This document shows, piece by piece, positions 5,210 through 19,858 of a DNA stretch of 64,000 nt; position 1 is the first letter of the stretch, and every line of letters begins with the position of its first letter. This DNA comes from Bacteroidia bacterium (GTDB lineage: Bacteria > Bacteroidota > Bacteroidia > Flavobacteriales > Flavobacteriaceae): the NCBI GenBank assembly GCA_030432635.1, contig JAUIMB010000001.1, positions 1 to 64,000 on the forward strand. Direction: 5' to 3'. The notes beneath the pieces were generated by a model, which did not search any database, was not told the origin of the DNA, and saw only the letters and a list, made by a program, of their open reading frames with translations. A program made the translations under genes and the position numbers.

Positions 5210-6001
5210 ATGAGTGAGCAACTAAAAGTGCCTACAATGGCAGAGTTTATGGCAGAAGGGAAGCAACCTGAGATTTTATTTTGGGTCGGCTCGGCTGGAA
5301 GTTATGATGATAGAGCAAAAAAAATCACGAAGGCTTTTGTGAAAATTTTGAACAAAGCCAATGTTGAATTTGCTGTTTTAGGAACCGAGGAAAGTAATAC
5401 AGGTGACGTTGCCAAGCGTGCAGGTAATGAGTTTTTGTTCCAAATGCAAGCAGTTACCAATATAGAGGTGTTAAATGCTTATGAGGTGAAGCGCATTGTG
5501 ACGTGTGATCCGCATTCGTTCAATTGCATAAAAAATGAGTATCCAGGTTTGGGTGGCGTTTACGATGTTGTACACCATACACAGTATATTGAAGAGTTAA
5601 TTGCTGCTGGTCGTTTGCAAGTTGGTAGTGATACGCTTAAAGGGAAGCGCATAACGTTTCATGACCCATGTTATTTGGGTAGGGCAAATAAGGTTTACGA
5701 ATCTCCTAGAACTGTACTTAAGGGCACCAATGCTAATATTGTCGAAATGAAACGACATAAAAGCACAGCATTGTGTTGTGGTGCTGGAGGAGCGCAAATG
5801 TTCAAAGAGCCTGAAAAGGGTGATATGGACATCAATGTTATGAGAACTAAGGACGCACTAGAAACCAACCCGAATATTATCGCTACAGGTTGCCCTTATT
5901 GTAATACGATGATGACCGATGGCATCAAAGCTCATGAAAAAGAAGCTGATGTTGAAGTACTGGATGTCGCTGAAATTATAGCTAAAGCCCAAAACTTTTA
6001 A
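5210..6001 (+). CDS. (Fe-S)-binding protein with CCG domains
   Basis: A 263-residue soluble protein with two Cys-rich (CCG) modules: CDPHSFNCI paired with HDPCYLG, and ALCCGAGGAQMF paired with ATGCPYC. CCG domains, as in HdrB, GlpC and LutA, hold an unusual Fe-S cluster and handle thiol/disulfide or quinone-linked electron transfer. It is the evident soluble partner of the membrane subunit at 3769. The segment FWVGSAGSYDDRAKKI near the N-terminus is also typical of this flavobacterial family. The ATG at 5210 follows the REP-like element by 24 bp. Physiological substrate unknown. Confidence 0.9.
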   Translation: MSEQLKVPTMAEFMAEGKQPEILFWVGSAGSYDDRAKKITKAFVKILNKANVEFAVLGTEESNTGDVAKRAGNEFLFQMQAVTNIEVLNAYEVKRIVTCDPHSFNCIKNEYPGLGGVYDVVHHTQYIEELIAAGRLQVGSDTLKGKRITFHDPCYLGRANKVYESPRTVLKGTNANIVEMKRHKSTALCCGAGGAQMFKEPEKGDMDINVMRTKDALETNPNIIATGCPYCNTMMTDGIKAHEKEADVEVLDVAEIIAKAQNF

Positions 6002-6002
6002 G

Positions 6003-6200
6003 ATGCCACAAATTGATAAAAAACGTATTATCACTGCTGGATTGGTAGGAGGAACCATTTTTGCTATTGTTGTGGTGCTTTTTGATTACGTTTTTGGTCG
6101 TGGTTTTTCATGGCCTAGATTGGCATTCTATTTCATATTTGGAGTGTTGATGTATGGGTTTTTGACCTACCGAAATTTTAAGAAGCACAACAAGCAATAA
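6003..6200 (+). CDS. Small two-helix membrane protein
   Basis: A 65-residue protein starting one base after the stop of the (Fe-S)-binding gene, so translationally linked to it. It has two hydrophobic segments (IITAGLVGGTIFAIVVVLF and LAFYFIFGVLMYGFLTY) with basic ends (PQIDKKR, KKHNK). No family recognised beyond a conserved small membrane protein. Position suggests an accessory to the redox pair, but nothing in the sequence proves this. Confidence 0.75.
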   Translation: MPQIDKKRIITAGLVGGTIFAIVVVLFDYVFGRGFSWPRLAFYFIFGVLMYGFLTYRNFKKHNKQ

Positions 6201-6273
6201 TTCACTTAAGCTCAGTTCGATCATTTCTGATTGACCCAAAACCTTAGATAATTTAATTGAAACAAAGAGACAT

Positions 6274-6759
6274 ATGCTAGTAGATTTTAGTTCACTACCC
6301 GATGAATCTCGAGTTTGGATATACCAAGCCAATAGGTCGTTTACAGAACAGGAACTTTCGGAAATACAAGAAAGATTGCATGTGTTTCTTGAAAATTGGA
6401 CAGCACATGGAAGTAATCTTGAAACAGGTTATGTTATTGAATATAAAAGATTTATAGTGATTGCGTTGAATCAAAGCTTGAATTCAGCAACAGGTTGTAG
6501 TATTGATGCTTCAGTACATTTTATCCAGCAATTGGAGCAAGACTATAATGTAGATCTTATGGATAAAATGAATGTATCCTACAAGCAAGGTGATTATGTT
6601 GCTCATAAATCGTTATTGGATTTCAAAAAAATGGCAAAAGATCGAGCGATTTCCAAAAACACCATTGTTTTTAATAATCTAGTGACTAATATTGCAGAGT
6701 TTAAAGAGAATTGGGAAGTGCCTGCCTCAGAGAGTTGGCACAGTAGATTCTTGAAATAA
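6274..6759 (+). CDS. Conserved flavobacterial protein (often labelled 'ABC transporter ATPase')
   Basis: A 161-residue soluble protein with no signal peptide. Homologues in this gene neighbourhood are, as I recall, often called ABC transporter ATPases, but no Walker A, ABC signature or Walker B is present. Visible features are an acidic, helical N-terminal part (RSFTEQELSEIQERLHVFLE), a hydrophobic strand (RFIVIALNQ) and the segment SGATGCSID-like around Cys (NSATGCSIDASVHFI). It lies between the redox genes and serB, all in the same direction. Function unknown. Confidence 0.8.
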   Translation: MLVDFSSLPDESRVWIYQANRSFTEQELSEIQERLHVFLENWTAHGSNLETGYVIEYKRFIVIALNQSLNSATGCSIDASVHFIQQLEQDYNVDLMDKMNVSYKQGDYVAHKSLLDFKKMAKDRAISKNTIVFNNLVTNIAEFKENWEVPASESWHSRFLK

Positions 6760-6827
6760 TTTTTAGATGTGTATTACGAATGAACAAGAGTAAGGAACCA
6801 ATCTTAAAGGAGCTGGAAAATAATATC

Positions 6828-8051
6828 ATGTCTAATGAAATATTCTTGATGAATATTTCAGGGCAGGACAAACCTGGACTGACGTCAAGTCTGACCAATG
6901 TTTTAGGACAATATGATGCAAAGATATTGGATATTGGTCAAGCAAATATTCACGATACCCTATCGTTGGGAATTTTGTTTGAAATACAATCTGGTGCCAA
7001 TTCGGCATCTGTATTAAAAGACTTACTATTTAAGTCTTATGAGTTGGGAATCACAGCAAAATTCAGTCCGATTACTTCTGAAAACTATGAAAATTGGGTG
7101 AACCTTCAAGGGAAAGATCGTTACATTATCACGATTTTGGGAGAGAAATTGTCAGCCGAACAAATTTCTAAAGTCACCGAAGTCATTTCTGAAAGAAACC
7201 TGAATATTGATGCCATAAAACGTCTAACTGGACGTACATCATTAATCAAGAAAGAGGAATATCCTCGGGCTTCCATTCAATTGTCCATAAGAGGGAAAAT
7301 TGATAACAAACAGGGCTTTACAGAGCGTTTCATGCAAATTTCAAGGGATTTGGATGTTGATATTGCCTTTCAGGAGGATAATATCTTTAGACGAAATCGA
7401 CGCTTGGTGTGCTTCGATATGGATTCTACATTGATTCAAACTGAAGTAATTGATGAACTTGCAGAATTGGCTGGAGTCGGACAAGAGGTGAAAGCCATTA
7501 CAGAGTCTGCGATGCAAGGAGACATAGATTTTAACGAAAGTTTTAAACAACGGATGAAACTTTTAAAAGGTTTAAGTGAGGCTGTCCTTCATGATGTTGC
7601 GGTGAATCTGCCAATTACCAAAGGCGCAAAGCGACTCATTGATACATTGAAAACCTACGGATTTAAAACGGCTATATTGTCTGGTGGCTTCTCATATTTT
7701 GGCCATTTTTTACAACAAAAATTAGGTATTGATTACGTATATGCCAATCAACTGGAAATAAAAGATGGCGTCCTAACTGGGAATTACCTAGGTGATATTG
7801 TCGATGGAAATAAAAAAGCCGAGTATTTACAGGAAATAGCAGATAAAGAAGGGATAGATATTGCCCAGACCATAGCAGTTGGTGATGGAGCGAACGATTT
7901 ACAAATGCTCAATTTAGCAGGCTTGGGTATTGCGTTTCATGCCAAGCCTAAAGTGAAGGATAATGCGCAGAGTTCGATTTCTAGTATTGGGTTAGATGGT
8001 GTGCTGTACTTGTTGGGTTACCATGATCGGCATATTGATTTGATGGATTGA
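6828..8051 (+). CDS. serB: Phosphoserine phosphatase SerB with N-terminal ACT-like domains
   Basis: SerB hydrolyses O-phosphoserine to serine, the last step of the phosphorylated serine pathway. The C-terminal half is a HAD phosphatase: CFDMDSTLIQTEVIDELA holds the nucleophile and acid/base Asp pair, AILSGGFSYF the motif II Ser, and AVGDGANDLQMLNLAGLGIA the motif III/IV Asp residues. The first 180 residues include an ACT-like segment (NISGQDKPGLTSSLTNVL). I start at the ATG at 6828 (MSNEIFLMNISGQ), which begins right at the ACT fold; an earlier in-frame ATG at 6780 would add 16 polar residues. Confidence 0.95.
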   Translation: MSNEIFLMNISGQDKPGLTSSLTNVLGQYDAKILDIGQANIHDTLSLGILFEIQSGANSASVLKDLLFKSYELGITAKFSPITSENYENWVNLQGKDRYIITILGEKLSAEQISKVTEVISERNLNIDAIKRLTGRTSLIKKEEYPRASIQLSIRGKIDNKQGFTERFMQISRDLDVDIAFQEDNIFRRNRRLVCFDMDSTLIQTEVIDELAELAGVGQEVKAITESAMQGDIDFNESFKQRMKLLKGLSEAVLHDVAVNLPITKGAKRLIDTLKTYGFKTAILSGGFSYFGHFLQQKLGIDYVYANQLEIKDGVLTGNYLGDIVDGNKKAEYLQEIADKEGIDIAQTIAVGDGANDLQMLNLAGLGIAFHAKPKVKDNAQSSISSIGLDGVLYLLGYHDRHIDLMD

Positions 8052-8257
8052 TGAATCATCCTCAATATTATCTTTCTAAACTGCATTCATATCAGTTAAC
8101 ACAATAAATTTTAAACTATCAAATTAATGTCCTCGAGGTAGACACGGTTGGGATTATTAGTCTGTTGGCATATGGTAAGTATAAAAAGCCAGGATTGATT
8201 GGCTGTTAACAGTATCATTTTCTTTATAAGCACATAATAAAGTATGGTATGACAACC

Positions 8258-8279
8258 ATTGCAAGTAATAACGAAATCT
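8258..8279 (+). repeat. 22-bp motif, copy 1 (second copy at 13224)
   Basis: ATTGCWAGTAATARCGAAATCT occurs here, 92 bp before the kinase start, and again at 13224-13245 ahead of the lipoprotein gene; the two copies match at 20 of 22 positions. It may be a regulatory site shared by the kinase and lipoprotein promoters. It also faintly resembles a conserved 16S rRNA segment, so chance similarity is possible. Confidence 0.45.
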
Positions 8280-8291
8280 TACTGTACGTTC

Positions 8292-8302
8292 AACAACTAA
8301 AA
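8292..8302 (+). promoter_or_regulatory. Possible single half-site for the LytTR regulator
   Basis: AACAACTAAAA fits the AACYACTAAAW repeat found in pairs at 11323, 13270 and 14275, with one deviation. No second copy lies 20 bp to either side. It could be a weak autoregulatory site for the kinase/regulator operon, or chance in AT-rich DNA. Confidence 0.25.
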
Positions 8303-8371
8303 CACGGCAACATATAGCGTAGTCAATTTTATTTACTAAATTAAATGCTCAAAAACCAAACTTTTTAGCTT

Positions 8372-10513
8372 ATGTTAAATCAAGAGTATTGGAAAATAGC
8401 AACATGTAGACATCAGAGACTTAAAAGCTATCGAAGCATTGCTAATGTTGTTTTGGTCTTCTTAATTCTGTTGTTCACATTATTAAATAGTACCAGTCTC
8501 TATGGACAGCACAATGCTTCACAGCAGGATTCGCTTAAGGCAAAGCATCTTAAAGACACAAGTTTCGAACTAATAAGAACAAATCCTGACAGTGCAATTG
8601 TTGTTGCGCGTAAGCTCGCTGACTATGGAGAATTAAAGAATAATCTAAAATGGGAAGTAGATGGACTAAGAAGAATTGGAATGGCGTATGAGGCAAAGGC
8701 TAAATTCGATTCAGCCTTAGTGTATTATAATCGAAGTCTAAAACTTAGAGAATCTTCAGGAGATATTAAATTACAAGCAGTTGGTATTGGAGATTTAGCT
8801 ATTCTTGCAATTACAACAGGAAGATATCAAGAATCAATAGAATTATACAAGAGACAGTTGTCACTTTGGAAAGAACTCGGAGATAGTACAAGAATTTCCA
8901 AGGCATATAACAATGTAGGCGTTGCATATTTCTATCTGGGAGATGTACGAAACACCATAGATGCCTATTCAGCATCTATGAAAATTGATGCACAACTCGG
9001 AAATACTAACAGATTACAACGCACAAAAGTCAATGTAGCTCAATTATATAATCGGATAGGTAATCACCAAAAGGCAATTGAACTATTGTCTGAAGCTGAA
9101 GACTATTTTAAAGAGAATGATTCAGATTTTGTGAATGATTATACGATTCGCTCAACCCAAGGCGCTGTATATAGTGATATGGAAGAGTTTATAAAGGCCA
9201 TGGAAAAATATCAGCTAGCATTTGCTATTGCTGAGGAGTCTAAGAATCCATTGCATAAAGCAAGAGCATTTATGAATATTGGTCTTGTACATAAGCGTAC
9301 CGGTGAATTTCAAGAAGCGATTGAAAAATTTGAGAAAGCACTGAGTTATCATAAGGAATTCAATGACCCTCAAGGAATTGCTATTACACTTGCAAATCTG
9401 GGAAAAGCCTATTTGGAGACAGGTAAAATACGAGAGGCCATTGCGGTTTCAAAAAGAGTTATTGGCTATCATGACGAATATGGGAATTTAGTGGAGGCAG
9501 TTGAAGCATATGATGTATTAGCACAATGCTATAAGCAATTGGGAGATGCACCGAAAGCTTATTCTGCTCTTGAAAAACATCTGAGATTGAGAGATAGTTT
9601 AGATGGAGATGAGAAGGTAGCTCTACTGCTTGATAAAGAGTATGAGTTTAAATATGAACTAAAAGCAAAATCTGACAGCCTTCAACTCGCATATGAAAAT
9701 GAATTCCAACTCAATGATCAAAAAAAACAGCATAAACGACAGACTGAGCGTTTGTTAATTGGTGGAGTTGTATCTCTCATTTTTTTGATAGTATTGGGTT
9801 TACTAGTAAGGGCTCGACAAAAAAGAAAGCTATTGAAGGCAGAATTCAAAGCAAAAACACATGAACTTAACTCGGTTAAAAGCGAAATGAAAGCGTTACG
9901 CTCTCAAATGAACCCTCATTTTATTTTCAATGCCTTACAGTCCATCCAAAATTTCTTGCTCGATCATAAGTCTGAAGAAGCCAATGAACATTTATTAAAG
10001 TTCTCAAAATTGATGAGAAATGTCCTTGAAAATTCTAGACATGATGAAGTATTGATCGAAGAGGATTTGGACGCACTTGAATTGTATATTGAATTAGAAA
10101 AATTGAGATTTCCAAGGCCTTTTAATCATACAATTACTATCGACAATAGTGTAATTCCTGATGAGGATATGATACCACCTCTTATTCTGCAACCCTTTGT
10201 TGAAAATGCAATCTGGCATGGATTAAAACTTAAGAAAGACAATGGTGCTATTGACATTAGCATTTCTAAGAATGGTAACTTCCTTCATTGCATAGTTGAA
10301 GATAATGGTGTTGGACGGCAAAAAGCTGCAAGCAAAGTTAAAACAGATACGCTTAAAAAAGCCTCATTGGGCTTACAAATTACAAAAGAGCGCTTATCCT
10401 TACATGATTCACGTTTCAATTTATCAAGTTCATTGAAAGTTATAGATTTAAAGGATGACAATGAGCAACCTCGAGGCACCCGTGTAGAACTAACCATACC
10501 AATAAGCACATGA
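8372..10513 (+). CDS. TPR sensor histidine kinase (LytS/His_kinase family)
   Basis: A 713-residue protein. A hydrophobic segment at about 27-45 acts as signal or anchor. Residues 60-440 are tandem TPRs (SKAYNNVGVAYFYLGDVRNTIDAY, HKARAFMNIGLVHKRTGEFQ and similar), predicted to lie outside the inner membrane. A transmembrane helix follows (LLIGGVVSLIFLIVLGLLV), then a short coiled coil and the cytoplasmic kinase: MRSQMNPHFIFNALQ-type H box with His516, and the ATP-binding FVENAIWHGLKL and DNGVGRQKA motifs. This LytS-like class phosphorylates LytTR regulators. The stop overlaps the start of the next gene by 4 bp (ATGA), so the two are translationally coupled. The signal sensed is not visible. 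Confidence 0.93.
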   Translation: MLNQEYWKIATCRHQRLKSYRSIANVVLVFLILLFTLLNSTSLYGQHNASQQDSLKAKHLKDTSFELIRTNPDSAIVVARKLADYGELKNNLKWEVDGLRRIGMAYEAKAKFDSALVYYNRSLKLRESSGDIKLQAVGIGDLAILAITTGRYQESIELYKRQLSLWKELGDSTRISKAYNNVGVAYFYLGDVRNTIDAYSASMKIDAQLGNTNRLQRTKVNVAQLYNRIGNHQKAIELLSEAEDYFKENDSDFVNDYTIRSTQGAVYSDMEEFIKAMEKYQLAFAIAEESKNPLHKARAFMNIGLVHKRTGEFQEAIEKFEKALSYHKEFNDPQGIAITLANLGKAYLETGKIREAIAVSKRVIGYHDEYGNLVEAVEAYDVLAQCYKQLGDAPKAYSALEKHLRLRDSLDGDEKVALLLDKEYEFKYELKAKSDSLQLAYENEFQLNDQKKQHKRQTERLLIGGVVSLIFLIVLGLLVRARQKRKLLKAEFKAKTHELNSVKSEMKALRSQMNPHFIFNALQSIQNFLLDHKSEEANEHLLKFSKLMRNVLENSRHDEVLIEEDLDALELYIELEKLRFPRPFNHTITIDNSVIPDEDMIPPLILQPFVENAIWHGLKLKKDNGAIDISISKNGNFLHCIVEDNGVGRQKAASKVKTDTLKKASLGLQITKERLSLHDSRFNLSSSLKVIDLKDDNEQPRGTRVELTIPIST

Positions 10514-11298
10514 TACATGCAATGATCATAGAAGATGACGTAGCAAATCATCAATATCTTAATGCCATGCTAGCCAAACATTTTCCTGAAGTGAATGTTT
10601 TAGCAACAATAGAAGAAATTCCAATAGCCATTGAAAAAGTTAAAGAGATAAAACCTCAATTAATTTTTTTGGATGTTGAACTACCTCCCTTTACTGGCTT
10701 TAATCTGTTAGAAGAAACACAAGGGCTGGATTACCATGTCATTTTCACCACACATTTCAATAAGTATGCAGCTAAAGCATTCAAATACGCAGCCGTACAT
10801 TACTTAGAAAAGCCTTTTGGAAAAGACGATCTAAAAGAGGCAATGGATTTCTATAAAGAACGTGTAGGGTATTCCGAAGAGGAAGGAAAAGTGACTAAAA
10901 TAGATGAACTTAATAATAAAGCCGTCGATGTCATGCTCCACAACCTTAGTGCTTCTGAAGAAAATCAAATCATTGGTTTCCCTGTTTTAGGAGGCATAGA
11001 CTTTTATCCAGTGAAAGACATTATCTGGTGTAAGGCAGAGGGTGTTTATGCCGATTTACGAATGACACAAGATCGCAAAATAACAGTCACAAAAACGCTG
11101 AAGAAGGTAGAGTTGCTCTTGAATGACCATAATTTCTTTCGCGTTCATAATTCTTACTTGATCAATCTAGACCACATGCGAAAATATTTAAGAGGAGATG
11201 GTGGAGAAGTTGTTATGAGTGATGGTTATGAAGTTGATGTGGCGCGTAACCGAAAAGACAATTTTTTAGAACAACTGAAGACCCAAGGGTTAATTTAG
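10510..11298 (+). CDS. LytTR-family response regulator
   Basis: A 262-residue regulator. The receiver domain (1-120) has the acidic pair EDD at 8-10, the phospho-acceptor Asp55 in LIFLDVELP, the Thr of VIFTTHF and the conserved Lys of YLEKPFG. The LytTR DNA-binding domain (about 155-262) shows YPVKDIIWCKAEGVYADL, KTLKKVELLL and FFRVHNSYLINLDHM. LytTR proteins bind paired direct repeats about two helical turns apart. Such pairs occur before the next three promoters downstream (11323, 13270, 14275), making those genes its likely targets. Coupled to the kinase by a 4-bp overlap. Confidence 0.94.
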   Translation: MIHAMIIEDDVANHQYLNAMLAKHFPEVNVLATIEEIPIAIEKVKEIKPQLIFLDVELPPFTGFNLLEETQGLDYHVIFTTHFNKYAAKAFKYAAVHYLEKPFGKDDLKEAMDFYKERVGYSEEEGKVTKIDELNNKAVDVMLHNLSASEENQIIGFPVLGGIDFYPVKDIIWCKAEGVYADLRMTQDRKITVTKTLKKVELLLNDHNFFRVHNSYLINLDHMRKYLRGDGGEVVMSDGYEVDVARNRKDNFLEQLKTQGLI

Positions 11299-11322
11299 CC
11301 GTGCCTGTTCGTTTATTTTACT

Positions 11323-11353
11323 AACTACTAAATTATTGCCCCAACCACTAAAT
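11323..11353 (+). promoter_or_regulatory. Tandem operator A, copy 1 (predicted LytTR site)
   Basis: AACTACTAAAT at 11323-11333 and AACCACTAAAT at 11343-11353, start to start exactly 20 bp. The second repeat ends 27 bp before the TATCTTTG -7 element, an activator-like position. The same layout recurs at 13270 and 14275. Confidence 0.7.
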
Positions 11354-11380
11354 GTAGCATTAGCAACTTACTTCTGAACA

Positions 11381-11388
11381 TATCTTTG
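11381..11388 (+). promoter_or_regulatory. Bacteroidota -7 promoter element for the LamG protein gene
   Basis: TATCTTTG matches TAnnTTTG. A GCATTA block lies about 25 bp upstream in place of a clear TTG -33 box and is conserved in the copy at 13328, consistent with activator-dependent promoters. Confidence 0.65.
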
Positions 11389-11425
11389 ATTTGAATTATT
11401 ATATTAACTTTTAAATAGAAATGAT

Positions 11426-13096
11426 ATGAAAAATTTTACTTTAACACTAACTGTATTAATATGTTCACTTTATTGCCAAAGTCAGACATTTTCAAATGCA
11501 ATTTTGATGGATGGACAAAATGATTACATTACCGTTAATGATAATAGTAATCTTAATCAAACGTCGACTATTAGCATTGAAGCATGGATTCGCCCTTGTG
11601 AAATAACAAATAGCCATGTGGTTGTAAGCAAAAACTGGTGTGCTAATAATCAAAACGCATATACTTTCAGAGTTGAAAGCGGTAATTTAGAATGGGTATG
11701 GGATAATGATCAATGTGGTATTGAAGATGATATCTACAGATCAGATTCGGCAATAATTCTACCCGATGTTTGGCAACACGTAGCAGTTGTTCACACCACA
11801 ACAGGCGTTACTTTATATCTCAACGGAACTCCTGTTAACGGTACACTTATAAGTGGTAATTATAGTAATATTCAAGTAAGCAACGAACCTCTCAGAATAG
11901 GTGCTTATAAATTTCTTGCAGGTAATATTGGTTCTTTGTTCTACGGTTTTATGGATGAAGTTCGAATTTGGGATTATGACTTAAGTTCTGCAGAAATTTT
12001 ATCGAGATATAATAGTGAGTTAATTGGAACCGAAACAGGTTTAGTTGGCTATTACAATATGAACGCTATCTCAGGATCGGGATCTGGATTAAATGTGGTA
12101 AATAATGCTACAAATACAGGAGATATATTAGATGGAATTACAATAGGAACAAGTGCTTCACCTTCAGTTGTCGCCTTTAATGAAAGTAATTGTCCTAGTC
12201 AAGAAAATAATTCCCTGACATGCTCTGATGGAATAGATAATGACAACGATACCTTAGTGGATTGCGATGATCCCGATTGCCAAAACTTGGGAAATGATGG
12301 CTGTGCGATTTGCAATGAAGGTATTACATTTGCAGATTTACTAATTGAATATGAATCTGGATGCACACTAGCCGATGCTAATCCCGAAGGTGCGCTTGGT
12401 GTTAGTGATTATCCTGGTGGCAATAATGACATCCCTGAGTTTGTTTTTTTAGGGCAAGGAGGTTTCATAAAACTTGGTTTTACCAATAATATTTTGACAA
12501 ATTCTGGGGATAGTAATTTTGATGTTTATGTTTTTGAAGTAGGCGCTGTTGTTGAAGCCACTACTTTAGAATTGCGTCCTGCTGATATATTTACCCAAAC
12601 CGAATTAAACAGTCTTAATATTCCCGATATGGATGAGGATGGGTTTTATGAATTTGGCTCAATAGGTGGATCAACAAGTGGTTTTGATATTGACAATGTT
12701 ATGAGCGGTTACGATCAACAGGCCTTAAAGTTCGATGCCATTAAAATTATGGACGTGGTTGATGGTTCTTGCTCTGGAGATTCACCTGGCGCAGACATTG
12801 ATGCCGTATGTGCTCTGTCATCCCTTACATTATCTACTGACGAAAATATAATGAACCAAAATTTCGTGAAGTTATATCCAAACCCAACTACAGGACATAT
12901 TTCGATTGATTTAGGCGAAACAAAAAACAATCTAAAATTGTCGCTTATCAATTATTTAGGTCAAGTGGTGCTAACTAAAGAATTTGTATCAACTGATTTT
13001 ATTAATATAGGTATTGATGTTCCAGCAGGAGTTTATTTCTTGCATTTAGAAACAGCGGAAGGAGAAAGAAACATCATTAAAGTCTTGAAACAATAA
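11426..13096 (+). CDS. Secreted LamG-domain protein with T9SS type A sorting signal
   Basis: A 556-residue exported protein. A signal peptide (ends CSLYCQSQ) precedes a LamG/concanavalin-like domain at about 25-205 (DYITVNDNSNLNQTSTISIE, FMDEVRIWDYDLSSAEI). A Cys-rich acidic stretch follows (CSDGIDNDNDTLVDCDDPDC), probably calcium-binding, then a beta-rich region with PDMDEDGFYEFGSI. The C-terminus (LYPNPTTGHISID ... GVYFLHLETAEGE) is a T9SS type A sorting domain, so the protein should be exported through the outer membrane and attached or released. It follows the LytTR regulator by 127 bp, with operator A in between. Ligand unknown; LamG domains often bind glycans. Confidence 0.88.
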   Translation: MKNFTLTLTVLICSLYCQSQTFSNAILMDGQNDYITVNDNSNLNQTSTISIEAWIRPCEITNSHVVVSKNWCANNQNAYTFRVESGNLEWVWDNDQCGIEDDIYRSDSAIILPDVWQHVAVVHTTTGVTLYLNGTPVNGTLISGNYSNIQVSNEPLRIGAYKFLAGNIGSLFYGFMDEVRIWDYDLSSAEILSRYNSELIGTETGLVGYYNMNAISGSGSGLNVVNNATNTGDILDGITIGTSASPSVVAFNESNCPSQENNSLTCSDGIDNDNDTLVDCDDPDCQNLGNDGCAICNEGITFADLLIEYESGCTLADANPEGALGVSDYPGGNNDIPEFVFLGQGGFIKLGFTNNILTNSGDSNFDVYVFEVGAVVEATTLELRPADIFTQTELNSLNIPDMDEDGFYEFGSIGGSTSGFDIDNVMSGYDQQALKFDAIKIMDVVDGSCSGDSPGADIDAVCALSSLTLSTDENIMNQNFVKLYPNPTTGHISIDLGETKNNLKLSLINYLGQVVLTKEFVSTDFINIGIDVPAGVYFLHLETAEGERNIIKVLKQ

Positions 13097-13189
13097 CGGT
13101 TTGCAAATAAAGAGGTAACTAAAAAGTTTTCAAGTATTTAAGAATACGAATTTGAAAATCCTCTCCGACATTTCTGTCCGAATAAAAAA

Positions 13190-13218
13190 GAGGCTGTCTT
13201 AAAAGTTAAGACAGTCTC
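13190..13218. terminator. Hairpin, probable terminator
   Basis: GAGGCTGTCTT and AAGACAGTCTC pair over 11 bp (one G-U) around a 7-base loop. An A-run on the 5' side gives a U-run for leftward transcription; the rightward side lacks one. It separates the LamG gene from the lipoprotein promoter. Confidence 0.6.
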
Positions 13219-13223
13219 AAATC

Positions 13224-13245
13224 ATTGCTAGTAATAGCGAAATCT
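13224..13245 (+). repeat. 22-bp motif, copy 2
   Basis: ATTGCTAGTAATAGCGAAATCT, 20 of 22 identical to the copy at 8258. It lies 24 bp upstream of the tandem operator at 13270. Confidence 0.45.
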
Positions 13246-13269
13246 GATAATCTTATTTTATAAATCGCC

Positions 13270-13300
13270 AACCACTAAAATATTCCCCCAACCACTAATT
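13270..13300 (+). promoter_or_regulatory. Tandem operator A, copy 2 (predicted LytTR site)
   Basis: AACCACTAAAA at 13270-13280 and AACCACTAATT at 13290-13300, 20 bp start to start. It ends 27 bp before TATCTTTG, exactly as in copy 1. Confidence 0.7.
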
Positions 13301-13327
13301 CCAGCATTAACCAAACACTTGTGATTA

Positions 13328-13335
13328 TATCTTTG
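13328..13335 (+). promoter_or_regulatory. Bacteroidota -7 promoter element for the lipoprotein gene
   Basis: TATCTTTG followed by AGTTGAATTA, closely resembling the promoter at 11381 in sequence and spacing to the operator. About 37 bp lie between it and the ATG at 13373. Confidence 0.65.
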
Positions 13336-13372
13336 AGTTGAATTAAAAAATTAACTCTTAAATATAATTATT

Positions 13373-14071
13373 ATGAAAAATTTGACCTTTTGCGCAAACT
13401 TAAAACAAAGAAAAATAAAATTTATAAGACCTTTTTATGTGGTAATGATTCTTAGTCTACTCATATTTGCTTGTGGAAGCGATGATATCGATTCTGGAAA
13501 CGACGATTTATTTGGTGGTCTCGAGTCTGATTGCATTGATTTATGTGCTTTCGGAGATGCTGTTCAAACGACATCTGAAATGCCAGAACCATGCGGTTGT
13601 GATTGTTTTGATGGCTTTTATGGTGAATTATGTGATCAATATGATGAGCCCATAGCATTTAATATTGTATCTATACAGCTAACTGATTGGCCTGAGTTCA
13701 ATAATTCCGAGTCATGGGACGATGGTTCTTCAACAGAAAAATTGCCAGACTTTAAAATATATATTAATGACAACAATTCAGGAAATCTGATAGGTGAAAC
13801 ATCTATGATCAATAATATAGCTCAAGGTACAACTCCTACTTATATAGGCTCTCCTTTCCCTTTGACAATTCCAATTGATGCAGAATTAAGATTTGCAATT
13901 GTTGATGAATCTACCGACTCATCTTTTGATTTTGATGTTCTTCTTCTTGGATATTTTCAATTAACTGAAGCAAATTTTCTTCAAAATGATAATAGTAACT
14001 TTTCAATTTCCTGGACATTATCTGAGTCTGAAAGAGTAGAGATAAAACTAATTGGAAATTGGATTCAATAG
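13373..14071 (+). CDS. Lipoprotein with EGF-like Cys cluster
   Basis: A 232-residue predicted lipoprotein. A basic, rather long n-region (LKQRKIKFIRP) is followed by a hydrophobic stretch and the lipobox LLIFAC, with acidic residues directly after the Cys, compatible with surface export in Bacteroidota. Residues 55-95 hold eight Cys, including CGCDCFDGFYGELCD, which looks like the second half of an EGF-like module. The C-terminal 140 residues are beta-rich and unrecognised. It carries operator A and is a probable target of the neighbouring LytTR regulator. Confidence 0.8.
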   Translation: MKNLTFCANLKQRKIKFIRPFYVVMILSLLIFACGSDDIDSGNDDLFGGLESDCIDLCAFGDAVQTTSEMPEPCGCDCFDGFYGELCDQYDEPIAFNIVSIQLTDWPEFNNSESWDDGSSTEKLPDFKIYINDNNSGNLIGETSMINNIAQGTTPTYIGSPFPLTIPIDAELRFAIVDESTDSSFDFDVLLLGYFQLTEANFLQNDNSNFSISWTLSESERVEIKLIGNWIQ

Positions 14072-14274
14072 TTTTACGCTCTCCTTATATTTAATCAGTA
14101 ATCATTGTTAAAACTAATCTATAACCTATACAATTTTATTTCAAGGCTTTCAATTGTAACTTGATTTTTCCAAATAATAATGTATCAAAATGATTAAGAA
14201 ATTAATTTTTTATACATCAAATTTCCCTAACAATACCAAGATAAAAGTACTGTACTTTGACTTATTTAAGTACC

Positions 14275-14305
14275 ATCTACTAAAATATGCCTCCAACCAC
14301 TAAAT
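14275..14305 (+). promoter_or_regulatory. Tandem operator A, copy 3 (predicted LytTR site)
   Basis: ATCTACTAAAA at 14275-14285 and AACCACTAAAT at 14295-14305, again 20 bp start to start. It lies 28 bp before GATATTTG (14334-14341), a one-mismatch -7 element for the acyltransferase gene. Confidence 0.68.
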
Positions 14306-14333
14306 TGAGGTTATATTCACTTTAATCCTTACC

Positions 14334-14341
14334 GATATTTG
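14334..14341 (+). promoter_or_regulatory. Probable -7 element for the acyltransferase/methyltransferase operon
   Basis: GATATTTG differs from TAnnTTTG at the first base; it is followed by AGTTATAAT, similar to the AGTTGAATT after the lipoprotein -7 box. The ATG at 14368 lies 27 bp further on. Confidence 0.5.
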
Positions 14342-14367
14342 AGTTATAATCAAAAAAAACAAAAATT

Positions 14368-14988
14368 ATGATCACGCTTCAACAAATAATGGCTCCTGAA
14401 AAACTCGAAGAGTATTTCCAGTTTCGCTATAAAATTTATACGAACAGCAATCAGTCAGGATATCTGAAAGACAACGCAACGACAGACAAAGATATTTACG
14501 ATGACAATGCGATTCATTTGGGCTGGTATGTTAATGGCGAGTTAAAAGGCTGTCTTCGGTTTATTAGACCAATTAAAGCTAGACATAGCTTATATGCCTT
14601 TTCTCATATGCCTTCGGATATCAAACATCTAGCTAAAGCATATATGAAAGAGTCTACCAGTCTAGGTAAGCCTTTCGTAGAGGTGAGCCGCATATGCATT
14701 GCAAAGGATATGCGTAATAGAAAAACAGTGACAGAATTCGTACTCACTACTATTCAAGAGGCAATCAACAGAGGGTTTGATCGAGGATTGTTCACTTGTC
14801 TAACAGGTCACCTTCCATATTGGTTGATGCATGGATTCCAAATTTTGGAAGGCACCAAATCATGGAAATGCACCATAACAGGTAAAACATCGTATTGCAT
14901 GACCTACAATGAATATAAATTACCGAATAACATTATCAGTCGTTTAAGTTCAAGTTTACAAATGACACCACCGAACCAAGCCGCATAA
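14368..14988 (+). CDS. LuxI-like (GNAT-fold) acyltransferase, possible signal synthase
   Basis: A 206-residue cytoplasmic protein. Seven of the eight residues conserved in acyl-homoserine-lactone synthases (EsaI numbering R24, F28, D45, D48, R68, E97, R100) have counterparts at matching spacing: R20 and Y24 in FRYKIY, D42 and D45 in DKDIYDDNA, R64 in GCLRFIRP, E105 and R108 in VEVSRICIA; Trp34 has no clear match. PEP-CTERM/exosortase-associated acyltransferases share this pattern and are an alternative. It is predicted to join an acyl group to an amino-containing acceptor. It is followed after 19 bp by a methyltransferase-like gene and preceded by operator A. Product unknown; a true AHL is unproven and would be unusual in this phylum. 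Confidence 0.78.
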   Translation: MITLQQIMAPEKLEEYFQFRYKIYTNSNQSGYLKDNATTDKDIYDDNAIHLGWYVNGELKGCLRFIRPIKARHSLYAFSHMPSDIKHLAKAYMKESTSLGKPFVEVSRICIAKDMRNRKTVTEFVLTTIQEAINRGFDRGLFTCLTGHLPYWLMHGFQILEGTKSWKCTITGKTSYCMTYNEYKLPNNIISRLSSSLQMTPPNQAA

Positions 14989-15007
14989 AAATTAAATATA
15001 TCATATT

Positions 15008-15643
15008 ATGAAAAAGCTGTATTCCTTACTTCAATTTATTCTCGTACTTATCGTTCTTCCGTTAATATACGATTTGAAATTAATCATCACATGGCCTATT
15101 ATCTCCATTATTGCTCTTATCAGTATACTTATTTTAAGTCAACCAGCCATGGATCTTAAAGAGAGTAAAGCAAATGACGCAACAGATAGAGGAACTATGT
15201 TATTAATTGCTATTGTTAGCTCTATAGGACAGATAGTTGGAATTATGGATTGGGCATATTTACAATCTTCTCCAATAAAAATAGATTGGATATCCATTCT
15301 AGGTCTAAGTATGATGTCATTTGGACTTGCATTTCGTCTTTGGGCAATCAAAACACTCAAAGACGCATTTAGTGCTACTGTCCAAATAAAAAAGGGACAG
15401 TCCTTAATCACTTCAGGACCATACAAATGGTTTCGACACCCAAGTTATACAGGAGCTTGGATATTGATGCTAGGTGATGCTATTCTCCTAAAAAGTTGGC
15501 CAAGCATCATTATTATGGGAGTAATAATGCTCTGGGTATACAACAAGCGAATAGAAACTGAAGAACAAACATTAGCCAATGCTTTTGGAATAGACTATAT
15601 AAAACATGAACGAAATACTTGGAAAATGCTCCCTGGTTGGTAA
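15008..15643 (+). CDS. Isoprenylcysteine carboxyl methyltransferase (ICMT)-family membrane protein
   Basis: A 211-residue integral membrane protein with about five hydrophobic helices. The C-terminal half shows the ICMT/PEMT signature: TSGPYKWFRHPSYTG, then a Glu-containing helix (KRIETEEQTL), FGIDYIKHERNTWKMLPGW. Family members methylate carboxyl groups or phospholipid head groups using S-adenosylmethionine at the membrane surface. It shares an operon with the LuxI-like acyltransferase (19-bp gap), so it may methylate the acylated product. That pathway link is inference. Confidence 0.85.
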   Translation: MKKLYSLLQFILVLIVLPLIYDLKLIITWPIISIIALISILILSQPAMDLKESKANDATDRGTMLLIAIVSSIGQIVGIMDWAYLQSSPIKIDWISILGLSMMSFGLAFRLWAIKTLKDAFSATVQIKKGQSLITSGPYKWFRHPSYTGAWILMLGDAILLKSWPSIIIMGVIMLWVYNKRIETEEQTLANAFGIDYIKHERNTWKMLPGW

Positions 15644-15783
15644 ATGAGAATAATTACTTACATTATACGTGACCCAAGGTGGGATTAAAATTAAAAGAAT
15701 TATCAATTTTAATTTGATTCACCATTAAATAGTTAATTTTACGAGAATAAGATTATACAACAATTTATTGAATGGGTTAACAT

Positions 15784-16572
15784 ATGAAACTCAAACTTTT
15801 CCAAATAGACGCCTTTACTGACAAAATATTTTCAGGAAATCCTGCATGTGTAGTACCTATGAAATCTTGGCCTCCAGATGAAGTTCTTCTCAATATTGCC
15901 AAAGAGAATGCTGTTGCTGAAACGGCATTTTTTATTGATAATGGTGATAGTGTGCATTTAAGATGGTTTACTCCCGAAATTGAAATGGACTTATGTGGTC
16001 ATGCAACTTTGGCGACTGCACATTGCTTACATACAATTTTAAATTACCCAAAGAATCAAATCGTATTTTCATCTCGTAGTGGTGAACTTAAAGTCCGCAT
16101 TGAAGATGATTGGTACCATATGGACTTTCCTTCTAGAAAACCTCAACCAGCACAGCTTCCTGAGATCGTAAGTCAGTCTTTAAATATACAGCCAAATGAA
16201 GTCTTTAAATCGCGGGACTACGTGTTGGTTTATGAGCACGAAAAAGAGATTGCAAACATTAAAGTAGACCAACAGATACTTGATCAAATCAATTTGGATC
16301 CTGGTGGTGTGATAGTCACGGCAAAAGGAACGGATTGCGATTTTGTGTCGCGTTATTTTACAGCGCAATCGTCTATTCTGGAAGATCCAGTAACGGGTTC
16401 TGCACATTGTTCCTTAACGCCTTTTTGGTCTGAACGACTTGGTAAAACAACCATGAATGCCAAGCAACTTTCAGAAAGATCGGGATACATAAAATGTGAG
16501 GATCAAGGTAAAAGGGTTATTATTTCGGGCAAGGCCAAGACCTATTCTTCAGGATATATTTGGCTAGACTGA
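15784..16572 (+). CDS. PhzF-family isomerase
   Basis: A 262-residue protein of the PhzF/diaminopimelate-epimerase fold. Typical marks are FQIDAFTDKIFSGNPACVV at the start, AKENAVAETAFFI with the catalytic Glu, LRWFTPEIEMDLCGHATLATAH, and EDPVTGSAHCSLTPFW near the end. PhzF isomerises trans-2,3-dihydro-3-hydroxyanthranilate; most homologues outside phenazine clusters have unknown substrates, and no phz genes are nearby. It lies 140 bp after the methyltransferase, so probably has its own promoter. Confidence 0.92.
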   Translation: MKLKLFQIDAFTDKIFSGNPACVVPMKSWPPDEVLLNIAKENAVAETAFFIDNGDSVHLRWFTPEIEMDLCGHATLATAHCLHTILNYPKNQIVFSSRSGELKVRIEDDWYHMDFPSRKPQPAQLPEIVSQSLNIQPNEVFKSRDYVLVYEHEKEIANIKVDQQILDQINLDPGGVIVTAKGTDCDFVSRYFTAQSSILEDPVTGSAHCSLTPFWSERLGKTTMNAKQLSERSGYIKCEDQGKRVIISGKAKTYSSGYIWLD

Positions 16573-16867
16573 TGAGTTTAACAAATATACTTTTCATTTG
16601 TATGGACAGTAAAAAAGCACAAAACCTTTCTATTGTCAAATCGCAATAAGAAATCTTTAATTGGTAAAATGATGCTCGATTTCTTAGTTTGTCCCTAATC
16701 CCTAATTTGTCTTCTGTTTTCTATCAACTAACATCAATTTGACCTTCTGTTCACAACCTTGGTTATAATTCTATCTTAAAGTCTTTCATTCTTTCACTGA
16801 AAATGCTATTTTGGCATAGTTTTTCGTCCATAATTGAGAAACCAACCTACAACAAAAAACCTTGAGT
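16573..16867. other. Intergenic region, nothing assigned
   Basis: About 295 bases of AT-rich sequence between PhzF and the GH3 fusion. No terminator, repeat or convincing promoter seen. Confidence 0.5.
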
Positions 16868-19858
16868 ATGCGCTATATTTTGTCCCTTATTGTCTTCATA
16901 ATGTCATTTTTTCCGAGTTATTCGCAAAGCGAGAATCATCCTTTAGCACATAAAGACCACGAAGCACAACAGAAATGGGTGGATAGTCTATATAGTGCGA
17001 TGTCCTTAGAAGAAAAAATCGGACAGTTATTTATGGTTCAGGTGTTTTCCAATCAGGATAAGGCAAGCGAAAATAAAATAGCCAAACTTATAAGGGACAA
17101 CCATATTGGTGGTTTGATTTATTCTAAAGGTGGTCCTGTTAGACAAGCAAAACTTAATAATTTATACCAAGCCATTTCAAAAACGCCATTATTAATAGGA
17201 ATGGATGCAGAATGGGGTTTGAGCATGCGATTGGATTCTACGTATGCCTTTCCGTGGAATATGACTTTGGGTGCAATCACGAATAATAAATTGGTAGAGC
17301 AAACTGGTTACCAAATAGGAGAGCATTGTAAGCGTTTGGGTGTGCATTTTAATTTTGCACCAGTTGTCGATATTAATACAAATCCCAACAATCCTATCAT
17401 AGGCAACCGTTCTTTTGGTGAAGATCGTGATAATGTTACCGAAAAAGCACTGGCTTTTATGAAAGGGATGCAAGATGCTGGTGTTTTGGCAAACGCCAAG
17501 CATTTTCCAGGTCATGGTGACACTGAAAGTGATTCTCATAAAACGTTGCCGACAATAAATTTTGAAGCAAAACGCATTGATTCGATAGAGTTGTATCCGT
17601 ATAAAAAATTAATTAAGGAAGGGTTAAGTAGCGTCATGGTCGCTCATTTAAATGTACCCAGTTTAGAACCAAGACGTGGCTTTCCTTCATCTTTGTCAAA
17701 GCATATCGTCACCGATATTTTGAAGGAAAGATTAGGGTTTAAAGGACTGATTTTTACGGATGCTTTGGAAATGAAAGGTGTAGCCGATTATATCGAAAAA
17801 GGGATTGATGGCAACAGTGCTAATTCTGTTCCAAAAGCGGGAGATATTGATTTAATGGCATTTCTGGCTGGTAATGACGTGATGTTGATGTCTGAAAATC
17901 CTGTAGAAGCCATACACAAATTTGTTGAAGCGTATCAAGACGCTGTAATTTCTGAAGAGCGATTGGCACATTCCGTCAAGAAAATCCTGATGGCCAAATT
18001 TAAGGTAGGACTTAATAATTACAAGCCTATAGGTCAAGCGACTGTAATTAATGACCTTAATCGTTTGGAGGACGATTTGCTTTACGGACAATTAATGGAA
18101 GAAGCGATTACGGTTCTAAAAAGTGCTTCAGATATTTTGCCGTTGCGAAACCTTGATACCAAAAAAATAGCTTATGTCGAACTTGGTGATGATTCGGGTT
18201 CGCCGTTTTATGATGAACTTAAAAAGTACGCTAAAATTCATAAGGTAAAAGCTGAAAAGTTAGACGAACTCATTACGAAGCTACAAAATTACAATACTGT
18301 AATTGTAGGATTCCACAAGCAGAATGATCACCCTTGGAAAGATTATAAATTCAAGGATAAGGAAAGAGTTTGGCTTCAGGAAATGGCACGCACCAATACT
18401 GTTATTCTTGATGTGTTTGCAAGGCCTTATGCACTTATGGATCTTACTACAATAACCAATATTGATGGGATCGTACTTAGCTATCAAAACAGTGAAATCG
18501 CACAACAAAAATCAGCACAAGTGATTTTTGGAGCTGTTGAAGCAAAAGGCAAGCTACCAGTGTCTGCTGGCGAATACTTTAAAGTAGGCGATGGGATTAC
18601 TTATAATTCGCTAATGTCCTTAAGTTATGGATTGCCAGAACGTGTTGGGATGAGTTCAGAAAAGTTACAGCGAATCGACTCTGTTGCTAACTATGCTGTA
18701 AATAATAAAATGACGCCTGGCATACAGTTGCTCGTTGCTAGAAAAGGTAAGGTTGTTTACAATAAGAACTTTGGAAAACATACCTATAATGGGAGTAAAA
18801 CAGTTGAATTTGATGATCTTTATGATGTAGCGTCGTTAACAAAAATCCTAGCAACACTTCCACTCTTGATGGAGTTGGAAGAAAAGAAAGCGGTTTCCTT
18901 GAACTCCAAATTATCTAGAATTCTTCCAGAGTATCAGGAGTCGAACAAAAAAAACATTACCATTAAACAAATGCTGTCCCATTACGCACAATTGCGTCCA
19001 TGGGTACCGTTTTATGTCTCTACATTGGATTCGGTGACGAACAAACCTGACCCAAAATACTACAGACGTGCTCAAACCCCTCGTTTCAGTATCAAGGTTG
19101 CAGAAGAGTTATATTTACGTCATGATTATCCGGATTCCATTCAAAAAATAATTTTAGAGTCAGAGTTGCTGTCAAGGCTACGTTACCGATACAGTGATTT
19201 ACCTTATTATATTTTGAAGAAATACATCGAAGGATATTACAAAAAACCTCTAGATCAATTGGTGCAAGAACATTTTTACCAACCTATGGGAGCCAATTAT
19301 ACGACTTATAATCCATCTTCAAAATTTAGTGATCGACAGATTGTGCCTACCGAAGTTGATGATTATTTCAGGTATCAGGAGGTTCATGGATACGTTCATG
19401 ATATGGGAGCAGCCATGCAAAATGGTGTTGGAGGACATGCAGGTGTATTCAGTAATGCGAATGATGTGGCCAAGATTATGCAAATGTATTTGCAAAAAGG
19501 GTATTATGGTGGCAAACGTTACCTCAAACCTGAGACAATAGATAAGTTTAATACATGTTATTTTTGCCATAAAAATGTAAGGCGAGGCATAGGATTCGAC
19601 AAACCTCAACTAGGAGATGAAGGTCCAACCTGTGGATGTATATCAATGACAAGTTTTGGGCATTCAGGGTTCACGGGAACTTATGCTTGGGCAGATCCAG
19701 AAGAGGAAATCATATATATTTTTCTAGCCAACAGAACCTATCCAAAAGCAGGAAAGAATTTGTTGCTAAGGGAAAATATTAGAACCGAAATTCAGCGCAT
19801 GATTTATGAGGCCATTATCGATGATGAAGAGAAAGTGGAACTGGCTGAACATAATTAA
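16868..19858 (+). CDS. GH3 beta-N-acetylglucosaminidase fused to a beta-lactamase-fold serine hydrolase
   Basis: A 996-residue exported protein (signal ends FPSYSQ; ATG at 16868 preferred to TTG at 16862). Residues 30-380 are a GH3 domain of the NagZ type: KHFPGHGDTESDSHKTLP carries the His/Asp loop and FTDALEMKGV the nucleophile Asp. A GH3 C-terminal-like region follows. The last 400 residues are a beta-lactamase/PBP-like domain with SLTK (Ser-x-x-Lys), YSDL in place of YxN, and HSGFTGT in place of KTG. Such fusions occur in Bacteroidota and suggest cutting of glycan and peptide or ester bonds in cell-wall turnover. Confidence 0.93.
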   Translation: MRYILSLIVFIMSFFPSYSQSENHPLAHKDHEAQQKWVDSLYSAMSLEEKIGQLFMVQVFSNQDKASENKIAKLIRDNHIGGLIYSKGGPVRQAKLNNLYQAISKTPLLIGMDAEWGLSMRLDSTYAFPWNMTLGAITNNKLVEQTGYQIGEHCKRLGVHFNFAPVVDINTNPNNPIIGNRSFGEDRDNVTEKALAFMKGMQDAGVLANAKHFPGHGDTESDSHKTLPTINFEAKRIDSIELYPYKKLIKEGLSSVMVAHLNVPSLEPRRGFPSSLSKHIVTDILKERLGFKGLIFTDALEMKGVADYIEKGIDGNSANSVPKAGDIDLMAFLAGNDVMLMSENPVEAIHKFVEAYQDAVISEERLAHSVKKILMAKFKVGLNNYKPIGQATVINDLNRLEDDLLYGQLMEEAITVLKSASDILPLRNLDTKKIAYVELGDDSGSPFYDELKKYAKIHKVKAEKLDELITKLQNYNTVIVGFHKQNDHPWKDYKFKDKERVWLQEMARTNTVILDVFARPYALMDLTTITNIDGIVLSYQNSEIAQQKSAQVIFGAVEAKGKLPVSAGEYFKVGDGITYNSLMSLSYGLPERVGMSSEKLQRIDSVANYAVNNKMTPGIQLLVARKGKVVYNKNFGKHTYNGSKTVEFDDLYDVASLTKILATLPLLMELEEKKAVSLNSKLSRILPEYQESNKKNITIKQMLSHYAQLRPWVPFYVSTLDSVTNKPDPKYYRRAQTPRFSIKVAEELYLRHDYPDSIQKIILESELLSRLRYRYSDLPYYILKKYIEGYYKKPLDQLVQEHFYQPMGANYTTYNPSSKFSDRQIVPTEVDDYFRYQEVHGYVHDMGAAMQNGVGGHAGVFSNANDVAKIMQMYLQKGYYGGKRYLKPETIDKFNTCYFCHKNVRRGIGFDKPQLGDEGPTCGCISMTSFGHSGFTGTYAWADPEEEIIYIFLANRTYPKAGKNLLLRENIRTEIQRMIYEAIIDDEEKVELAEHN

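Follow-up and report, generated by a model that had tools for sequence, protein, structure and literature searches.

What might a flavobacterium make with a distant relative of the quorum-sensing synthase LuxI and a membrane methyltransferase encoded side by side? The question is raised by two adjacent genes in a 64,000-nucleotide stretch of DNA (hereafter the window) from a Bacteroidia bacterium of the family Flavobacteriaceae (assembly GCA_030432635.1, contig JAUIMB010000001.1, positions 1 to 64,000):

14368..14988, plus strand: N-acyltransferase of the FeeM/PF13444 type (hereafter the GNAT), 206 amino acids (open reading frame, family scans, alignment)
15008..15643, plus strand: ICMT-family membrane methyltransferase, 211 amino acids (open reading frame, family scans, tree)

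The two reading frames lie on the same strand with a gap of 19 nucleotides, and together with the families found they bear out the initial annotation, which had described the protein at 14368 as followed 19 bp on by a membrane protein resembling isoprenylcysteine methyltransferase (ICMT). What is new here is a variant of the N-acyl amino acid gene cluster that pairs a FeeM-type synthase with an ICMT-family enzyme; no paper on such a coupling was found in a literature search that left most subscription papers outside. We read the locus, tentatively and with not quite an even chance of being right, as part of an acquired block in which a two-component system would switch on a cassette making an N-acyl amino acid methyl ester.

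Recurrence of the enzyme pair

Among 395 genomes of the phylum the GNAT has three matches at E 1e-3, namely its own, one in genome G462 and the LuxI protein of genome G634. The methyltransferase has 14 matches at E 1e-15 in 296 phylum genomes, its own included, and the best of the others is again in G462 (34%). The best non-self GNAT and the best non-self ICMT share a single locus of that genome, where two tandem GNATs stand directly 5' of the ICMT gene; in the class of G462 one of 197 genomes is matched, which is G462 itself. A first scan of genome-collection contigs with the GNAT alone gave no match. A second scan, made with three ICMTs, left 4 confirmed loci from 251 stretches; because it relied on two short patterns it does not establish rarity outside Bacteroidota. 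The four loci belong to a Chitinophagales metagenome-assembled genome (L138), in which a GNAT is followed by the ICMT, to Limnovirga soli and Foetidibacter luteolus, and to a short Chloroflexi contig on which no GNAT is visible. A profile built from four GNATs, run on 227 genomes from the order to which L. soli belongs, found four relatives, with an ICMT gene directly 3' in three of them (G1199, G1090 and G1175).

Pairs are thus present in six genomes, that of the window and five outside its family (G462, L138, G1199, G1090, G1175), and in all six cassettes the GNAT gene lies directly 5' of the ICMT gene, overlapping it or separated from it by at most 206 bp. The linkage of the two genes, for which the initial annotation had proposed a survey of co-occurrence, is upheld by these five genomes and by the ICMT beside three of the four new GNAT relatives, and sequence comparison in this way supports the view that the two enzymes are coupled. 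The cassette of G1090 adjoins a TPR/HisKA_3 kinase and a receiver-GerE regulator. PHROGs holds no family for the GNAT, viral contigs contain no relative of it, and plasmid records gave no match to the GNATs of the window and of L138 or to a second, candidate type of acyltransferase, described below, from L140; 59 plasmid records contain ICMT relatives, at less than 60% identity.

Family identity of the two enzymes

The GNAT matches PF13444 (E 2.3e-8, 35.1 bits, cut-off 22.4) and falls within PF21926, the family of the N-acyl amino acid synthase FeeM (structure 2G0B), with E 1.2e-7 and 32.1 bits against a cut-off of 27. Six of the seven cassette GNATs exceed that cut-off (32.1 bits in the window, 28.3 and 31.2 in G462, 47.4 in L138, 34.3 in G1199 and 28.2 in G1090); the GNAT of G1175 stays under it at 24.7 bits. 

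Acyl-homoserine lactone (AHL) synthases of the LuxI type have eight conserved residues, Trp among them. The alignment agrees with the initial annotation that seven of these are kept in the window GNAT (R20, Y24, D42, D45, R64, E105, R108) and that the position of Trp34 holds no Trp. The same seven are kept in all seven OlsB-like proteins (L018, L020, L021, L022, L024, L027 and L033, family-scanned except for L022 and L024) of an alignment of 21 GNATs in which several of the residues are missing from L014 and L006 and some from L009 and L017; the residues are therefore no mark of an AHL synthase. With L014 and L006 left out of the sets, hhalign matched the seven cassette GNATs to LuxI, OlsB-like and other relatives at a probability of 97.4% and E 1.5e-11, which indicates membership of one superfamily. 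PF00765, the LuxI family, does not match the GNAT up to E 1. As a positive control a true LuxI (L095), from genome G634 filed in the same phylum, scores 82.1 bits to PF00765, which is not a sharp marker, as one OlsB-like protein reaches 32 bits. Judged by sequence, FeeM is a better family for the GNAT than LuxI. Of the initial label ‘LuxI-like’, the superfamily and the seven residues stand; an AHL synthase was rejected as the main interpretation because PF00765 finds no match, the Trp is missing, FeeM fits better and the residues are superfamily-wide. As a separate observation, the G634 locus (L095, 6802-8906) carries two tandem LuxI-like genes beside a LuxR-like gene, and may be real, transferred or a contaminating contig.

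The best NCBIfam match of the GNAT is TIGR03694 (E 2.2e-10); at 40.4 of 111.95 bits it lies far under the cut-off of that family, and a PEP-CTERM acyltransferase was rejected on this score. It also falls outside the NCBIfam OlsB family, scoring 11.7 of the 320 bits needed. Nothing significant was found for it in the PDB by sequence, the AHL synthase 3p2f giving a phmmer E of 0.39.

The methyltransferase belongs to PF04140 (ICMT; E 5.9e-20, 71.9 bits, cut-off 24) and also matches PF04191 (PEMT). On a tree of 26 ICMTs, labelled as GNAT-linked (6), linked to the second type of acyltransferase (9) or other (11), the labels need 2 changes, and none of 200 shuffles was as low; the principal split is poorly supported (67/46), and two long rows labelled ‘other’ fall on the cassette side. 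The ICMT of L128, whose reading frame is unclear, was left off this tree, and those of L135, L136 and L137 entered it with shortened starts. Beyond these cassettes, five Chryseobacterium-like genomes (L129, L130, L132, L133, L134) have an ICMT without a GNAT, amid two-transmembrane (2TM) proteins, a LytS-type kinase and a LytTR-type regulator, all labelled by eye.

Alternative partners of a second, probable acyltransferase

What might the methyltransferase act on? The argument comes from loci of Chitinophagaceae in which an ICMT accompanies another candidate acyltransferase (AT). In L. soli and F. luteolus a 249-residue AT, an ICMT, a 7TMR-DISM histidine kinase and a receiver-kinase protein are encoded together, with a divergent lone receiver on the 5' side, a layout for which families were scanned in L. 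soli. Relatives of the AT are present in 67 of 224 Chitinophagaceae genomes, and we studied the AT loci of 40 of the 67, mostly the best-scoring ones, so that the share of ICMT among them is probably biased upwards. All 40 have the 7TMR-DISM kinase, 34 the receiver-kinase and 35 a match to the lone receiver (upstream on the opposite strand in 31, by our own count). Four kinds of tailoring gene were sought, and no locus has more than one: 19 have a ThiF or ThiF-nitroreductase gene, 7 an ICMT, 4 an S-adenosylmethionine (SAM) methyltransferase and 2 a flavin adenine dinucleotide (FAD) oxidase, labelled by eye; in the remaining 8 none was seen, and one of these (L183) has an ICMT-sized gap. Of these genes, family scans covered one SAM methyltransferase and one ThiF-nitroreductase.

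By sequence the AT is weakly supported as an N-acyltransferase. In an alignment of 41 of 42 sequences (L158 left out), 4 members match PF00583 (best E 8.3e-4), and matches of similar strength are given by two unrelated families, DUF3182 (2 of 41, best 9.4e-5) and LicP_NPro (3 of 41, best 0.0051); a search of the PDB by sequence gave nothing significant. From gene context the AT is likely an N-acyltransferase, because a ThiF-nitroreductase beside an acyltransferase is the layout of OxzAB, and TyzA N-acylates amino acids, as described in the accessible parts of PMC10404671. According to the same source, the ThiF partners of N-acyltransferases act on the carboxylate of the N-acyl amino acid. An ICMT that replaces ThiF would then be expected to cap that same carboxylate, and the appearance of ICMT and ThiF as alternatives in otherwise similar loci is our main argument that it does so.

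A dedicated operator

How is the pair controlled? The initial annotation had noted a paired operator that marks the GNAT gene and two other promoters beside a LytTR two-component system. Three copies are indeed present, and the genes and sites concerned are the following:

8372..10513, plus strand: sensor histidine kinase containing TPR repeats (PF06580 His_kinase and HATPase_c; Pfam scan)
10510..11298, plus strand: LytTR response regulator (Response_reg and LytTR; Pfam scan), the presumed operator binder
11319..11353, plus strand: operator copy 1, ending 72 bp 5' of the start codon of the LamG gene (motif searches and alignment)
11426..13096, plus strand: LamG-domain protein, secreted, with a type IX sorting tail (PF13385 3.2e-27, PF18962 2.1e-8)
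13266..13300, plus strand: operator copy 2, ending 72 bp 5' of the start codon of the lipoprotein gene (motif searches and alignment)
13373..14071, plus strand: putative lipoprotein with a lipobox-like Cys seen by eye and no family above cut-off (open reading frame list, family scans)
14271..14305, plus strand: operator copy 3, ending 62 bp 5' of the GNAT start codon (motif searches and alignment)

Family scans here and above used Pfam and NCBIfam, the Pfam scan covering seven window proteins. The pattern CYACTAAAWTATNNCYCCAACCACTAA, at 11325, 13272 and 14277, occurs three times in the whole genome of 3,508,160 bases at up to 3 mismatches, and the reversed pattern, used as a control, has no match genome-wide. 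All three copies lie within about 3 kb 3' of the LytTR gene. With up to 1 mismatch allowed, the motif CCAACCACTAA is found six times in the window, four times exactly, where 0.99 matches are expected, and none of 100 shuffles reached six. The operator is a paired direct repeat with a half-site period of 20 bp (21-22 bp is usual for LytTR half-sites), the half-sites of copy 3 being YACTAA, and in 3 of 3 genome copies this paired direct repeat stands 5' of a target gene near the regulator, as in a LytTR regulon. The uniqueness of the operator in the genome and its position suggest that the LytTR protein binds it and that the adjacent LytTR system controls the enzyme pair.

The GNAT promoter resembles those of the LamG and lipoprotein genes over the 35-nucleotide operator (83%) and over little else, which argues that the operator was kept or gained there on its own. 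A TAnnTTTG-like box, which we take to be the -7 promoter consensus, starts 28, 28 and 29 nucleotides 3' of the three operators by hand count, with one mismatch in the GNAT copy; a sigma-70 scan predicted 16 promoter-like sites where 14.2 are expected. The comparison was extended to six paralogous TPR-kinase/LytTR loci, of which two lie in the same genome and four in genus relatives. They contain neither a GNAT nor an ICMT gene, and the operator is missing from them when up to 3 mismatches are allowed; at 4 mismatches there is one match, in L220. The stretches 11323-11442 and 13270-13389 form a duplicated segment of 120 nucleotides (79%) that comprises promoter and signal peptide and precedes two different secreted or surface proteins.

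A probably acquired block

The sensor, the operators and the enzyme pair lie within one block:

8052..15783, no strand: block of six genes between serB and a PhzF-like gene (comparison with genus regions)

Its borders are the end of serB at 8051 and the start of the PhzF-like gene at 15784. A GH3 gene 3' of the block is present in 23 of 23 genus genomes, the window's own included. For 20 of the remaining 22 we compared the sequence 5' of this gene, over a length of at most about 14 kb. A tblastn search of these 20 regions (1e-5) gave no match to the six genes of the block. In 16 of the regions serB is present, and in two of these 16 the PhzF-like gene comes immediately after it. The GNAT is present in one of 299 genomes of the family, its own, and for the LytTR regulator the matches at E 1e-40 or better, in 37 genomes including its own, reach non-self identities of 34-39%. 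Per kilobase the G+C content is 0.32-0.37 in the block vs 0.34-0.41 in the flanks shown. No tRNA gene was found at 6000-18000, no mobile gene among the seven scanned window proteins, and no convincing target duplication at the block ends, their longest common word having 9 bases. The comparison suggests that the block is probably one acquired unit gained by transfer, with loss from the relatives as the alternative; a single acquired unit would link the enzyme pair with the sensor and the operator. The PhzF-like gene itself (15784-16572), which adjoins the block, was seen in 3 of the 20 sampled genus regions.

Discussion

What could be the product of such a block? We propose that the sensor kinase and the LytTR regulator would switch on the three promoters of the block through the dedicated double operator, that the FeeM-type GNAT would join a fatty acyl group, taken from acyl carrier protein or coenzyme A, to the amino group of an amino acid, and that the ICMT-type membrane methyltransferase would then methyl-esterify the free carboxylate to give an N-acyl amino acid methyl ester. 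With its charge capped the product would be membrane-permeant, an effect that the lactone has in AHLs, and hence suited to act as a diffusible signal. Transfer, both substrates, the order of the steps, the product, its export and a signalling role are what we infer from gene content and comparison; the product may be a signal, a surfactant or a lipid, and a signal is possible, with some comparative support. The initial annotation had likewise suggested a modified acyl signal or lipid made by coupled enzymes under a sensor kinase: the recurrent pair sustains the coupling, the operator points to control by the kinase, and the signal keeps the standing of a possibility.

Several observations weigh against this reading. 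The window GNAT is 17-25% identical to three linked GNATs, the fourth GNAT relative in the order of L. soli (G1169, at a contig end) is without an ICMT, and no two-component system was seen by eye in the regions of the G462, L138, G1199 and G1175 cassettes, so that such a system adjoins two of the six GNAT-ICMT cassettes (window and G1090) vs a kinase in 40 of 40 sampled AT loci. An ICMT is present at one of 15 other PF21926 loci (G462; the 15 come from 27 matched genomes other than the window's own), and for 11 of 13 non-self ICMT relatives the region taken shows no GNAT and no AT; the cassette is thus a special, sparse branch among genes of the FeeM type rather than the rule. The methyltransferase reaches 76.1 of the 160 bits of the isoprenylcysteine equivalog NF040696 and falls outside it, and proteins of the ICMT family have many substrates. 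The parallel with the AT loci is also imperfect: of the 19 loci with ThiF, 5 have it between AT and kinase and 14 upstream of the AT, vs 7 of 7 loci with the ICMT between AT and kinase. Nor is the AT tied closely to the GNAT, since hhalign of the AT against sets containing the cassette GNATs gave E 0.036, 0.014 and 0.0014 (a probability of 17% at best) and against the LuxI and OlsB-like relatives alone E 0.24, which is no support, with ICMT controls at E 0.37 and 0.7.

Among known systems, the window GNAT resembles the FeeM synthases in its score above the family cut-off and in the superfamily residues. It differs from them in its low identity and in the added ICMT and two-component system, the ICMT being missing at 14 of the 15 other FeeM-family loci. 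The acyl-oxazolone pathways OxzAB and TyzABC, in the accessible account of PMC10404671, combine an N-acyltransferase with a carboxylate-acting enzyme, as predicted for the window; no ThiF or nitroreductase is among the seven scanned window proteins, and capping would proceed by methylation instead of cyclisation. The predicted product is of the same class as the N-acyl alanine methyl esters of Roseovarius tolerans EL-164, and the accessible text of that report states that no candidate synthase gene was known for such methyl esters (PMC11580390). Stieleriacine clusters contain N-acyl amino acid synthases together with methyltransferases, ThiF and nitroreductase, and the word ‘isoprenylcysteine’ is absent from the accessible text of the paper (PMC12479983).

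Of the alternatives, a membrane or surface lipid survives best, and we hold it unlikely. The GNAT would here carry out an OlsB/GlsB-like first step towards an N-acyl amino acid lipid whose head group the ICMT alters, as part of a regulated change of the envelope. Such a function would suit the seven residues shared with the OlsB-like proteins (OlsB being the best NCBIfam match, below cut-off, of the five scanned), the glycine lipids described from many Bacteroidota in the accessible part of PMC12479983, the weak score of the window ICMT to the lipid A methyltransferase LmtA (34.3 of 325 bits) and the secreted and probable surface proteins encoded by the other two operator genes. It would sit badly with the 11.7 bits of the GNAT to OlsB, vs 69-152 bits for six OlsB-like proteins, and with the finding of no O-acyltransferase among the seven scanned window proteins.

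It is still harder to credit that the two enzymes are merely co-regulated and act on different substrates, the ICMT serving envelope or quinone methylation and having just the operon in common with the GNAT. The many ICMT relatives without a GNAT or AT nearby (the 11 of 13 above) and the setting of the five Chryseobacterium-like ICMTs are in line with this; the single gene order of the pair across families and the grouping of the cassette ICMTs on the tree speak against it. A true AHL synthase with an accessory methyltransferase is very improbable, as the seven LuxI residues and the insignificant match to 3p2f are outweighed by the failure of PF00765 (82 bits in the real LuxI of L095), the missing Trp, the better fit of FeeM and the finding of no LuxR-type protein among the seven scanned window proteins. 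We give equally little credence to an acyltransferase associated with PEP-CTERM/exosortase, or to an ordinary acetyltransferase that has nothing to do with acyl products, for although TIGR03694 is the best NCBIfam match, the score is about a third of that required, OlsB-like proteins do equally well on it, and the ICMT partner recurs.

On the preferred reading, a switched cassette for an N-acyl amino acid methyl ester, the enzyme pair is a testable candidate for a new kind of bacterial signal or lipid, since it recurs in distant bacteria. If true, an enzyme of the LuxI superfamily, a capping enzyme and a sensor would provide a large phylum with a new means of communication. More speculatively, and on balance rather doubtfully, Bacteroidota might have a whole family of cell-cell signals, carboxyl-capped N-acyl amino acids, with an N-acyltransferase, an exchangeable capper (ICMT, SAM methyltransferase, ThiF-nitroreductase or FAD oxidase) and a dedicated sensor kinase for each.

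The literature search found no paper, subscription papers being mostly outside it, in which 7TMR-DISM, quorum sensing and Bacteroidetes occur together. In the phcBSRQ quorum-sensing system of Ralstonia, according to the accessible text of PMC8578825, a methyltransferase makes a fatty acid methyl ester and is encoded beside a sensor kinase, with a receiver in both phcR and phcQ and a kinase domain in phcR as well. The Chitinophagaceae AT loci recall this system in their methyltransferase, kinase, receiver-kinase and lone receiver, a likeness of layout for which we claim no homology, and the window differs from it in having a LytTR regulator instead. Loci with an AT and a 7TMR-DISM kinase in this phc-like layout are widespread (L139 7249-11983, L140 7151-11900, L172-L210 and L158) and merit a study of their own.
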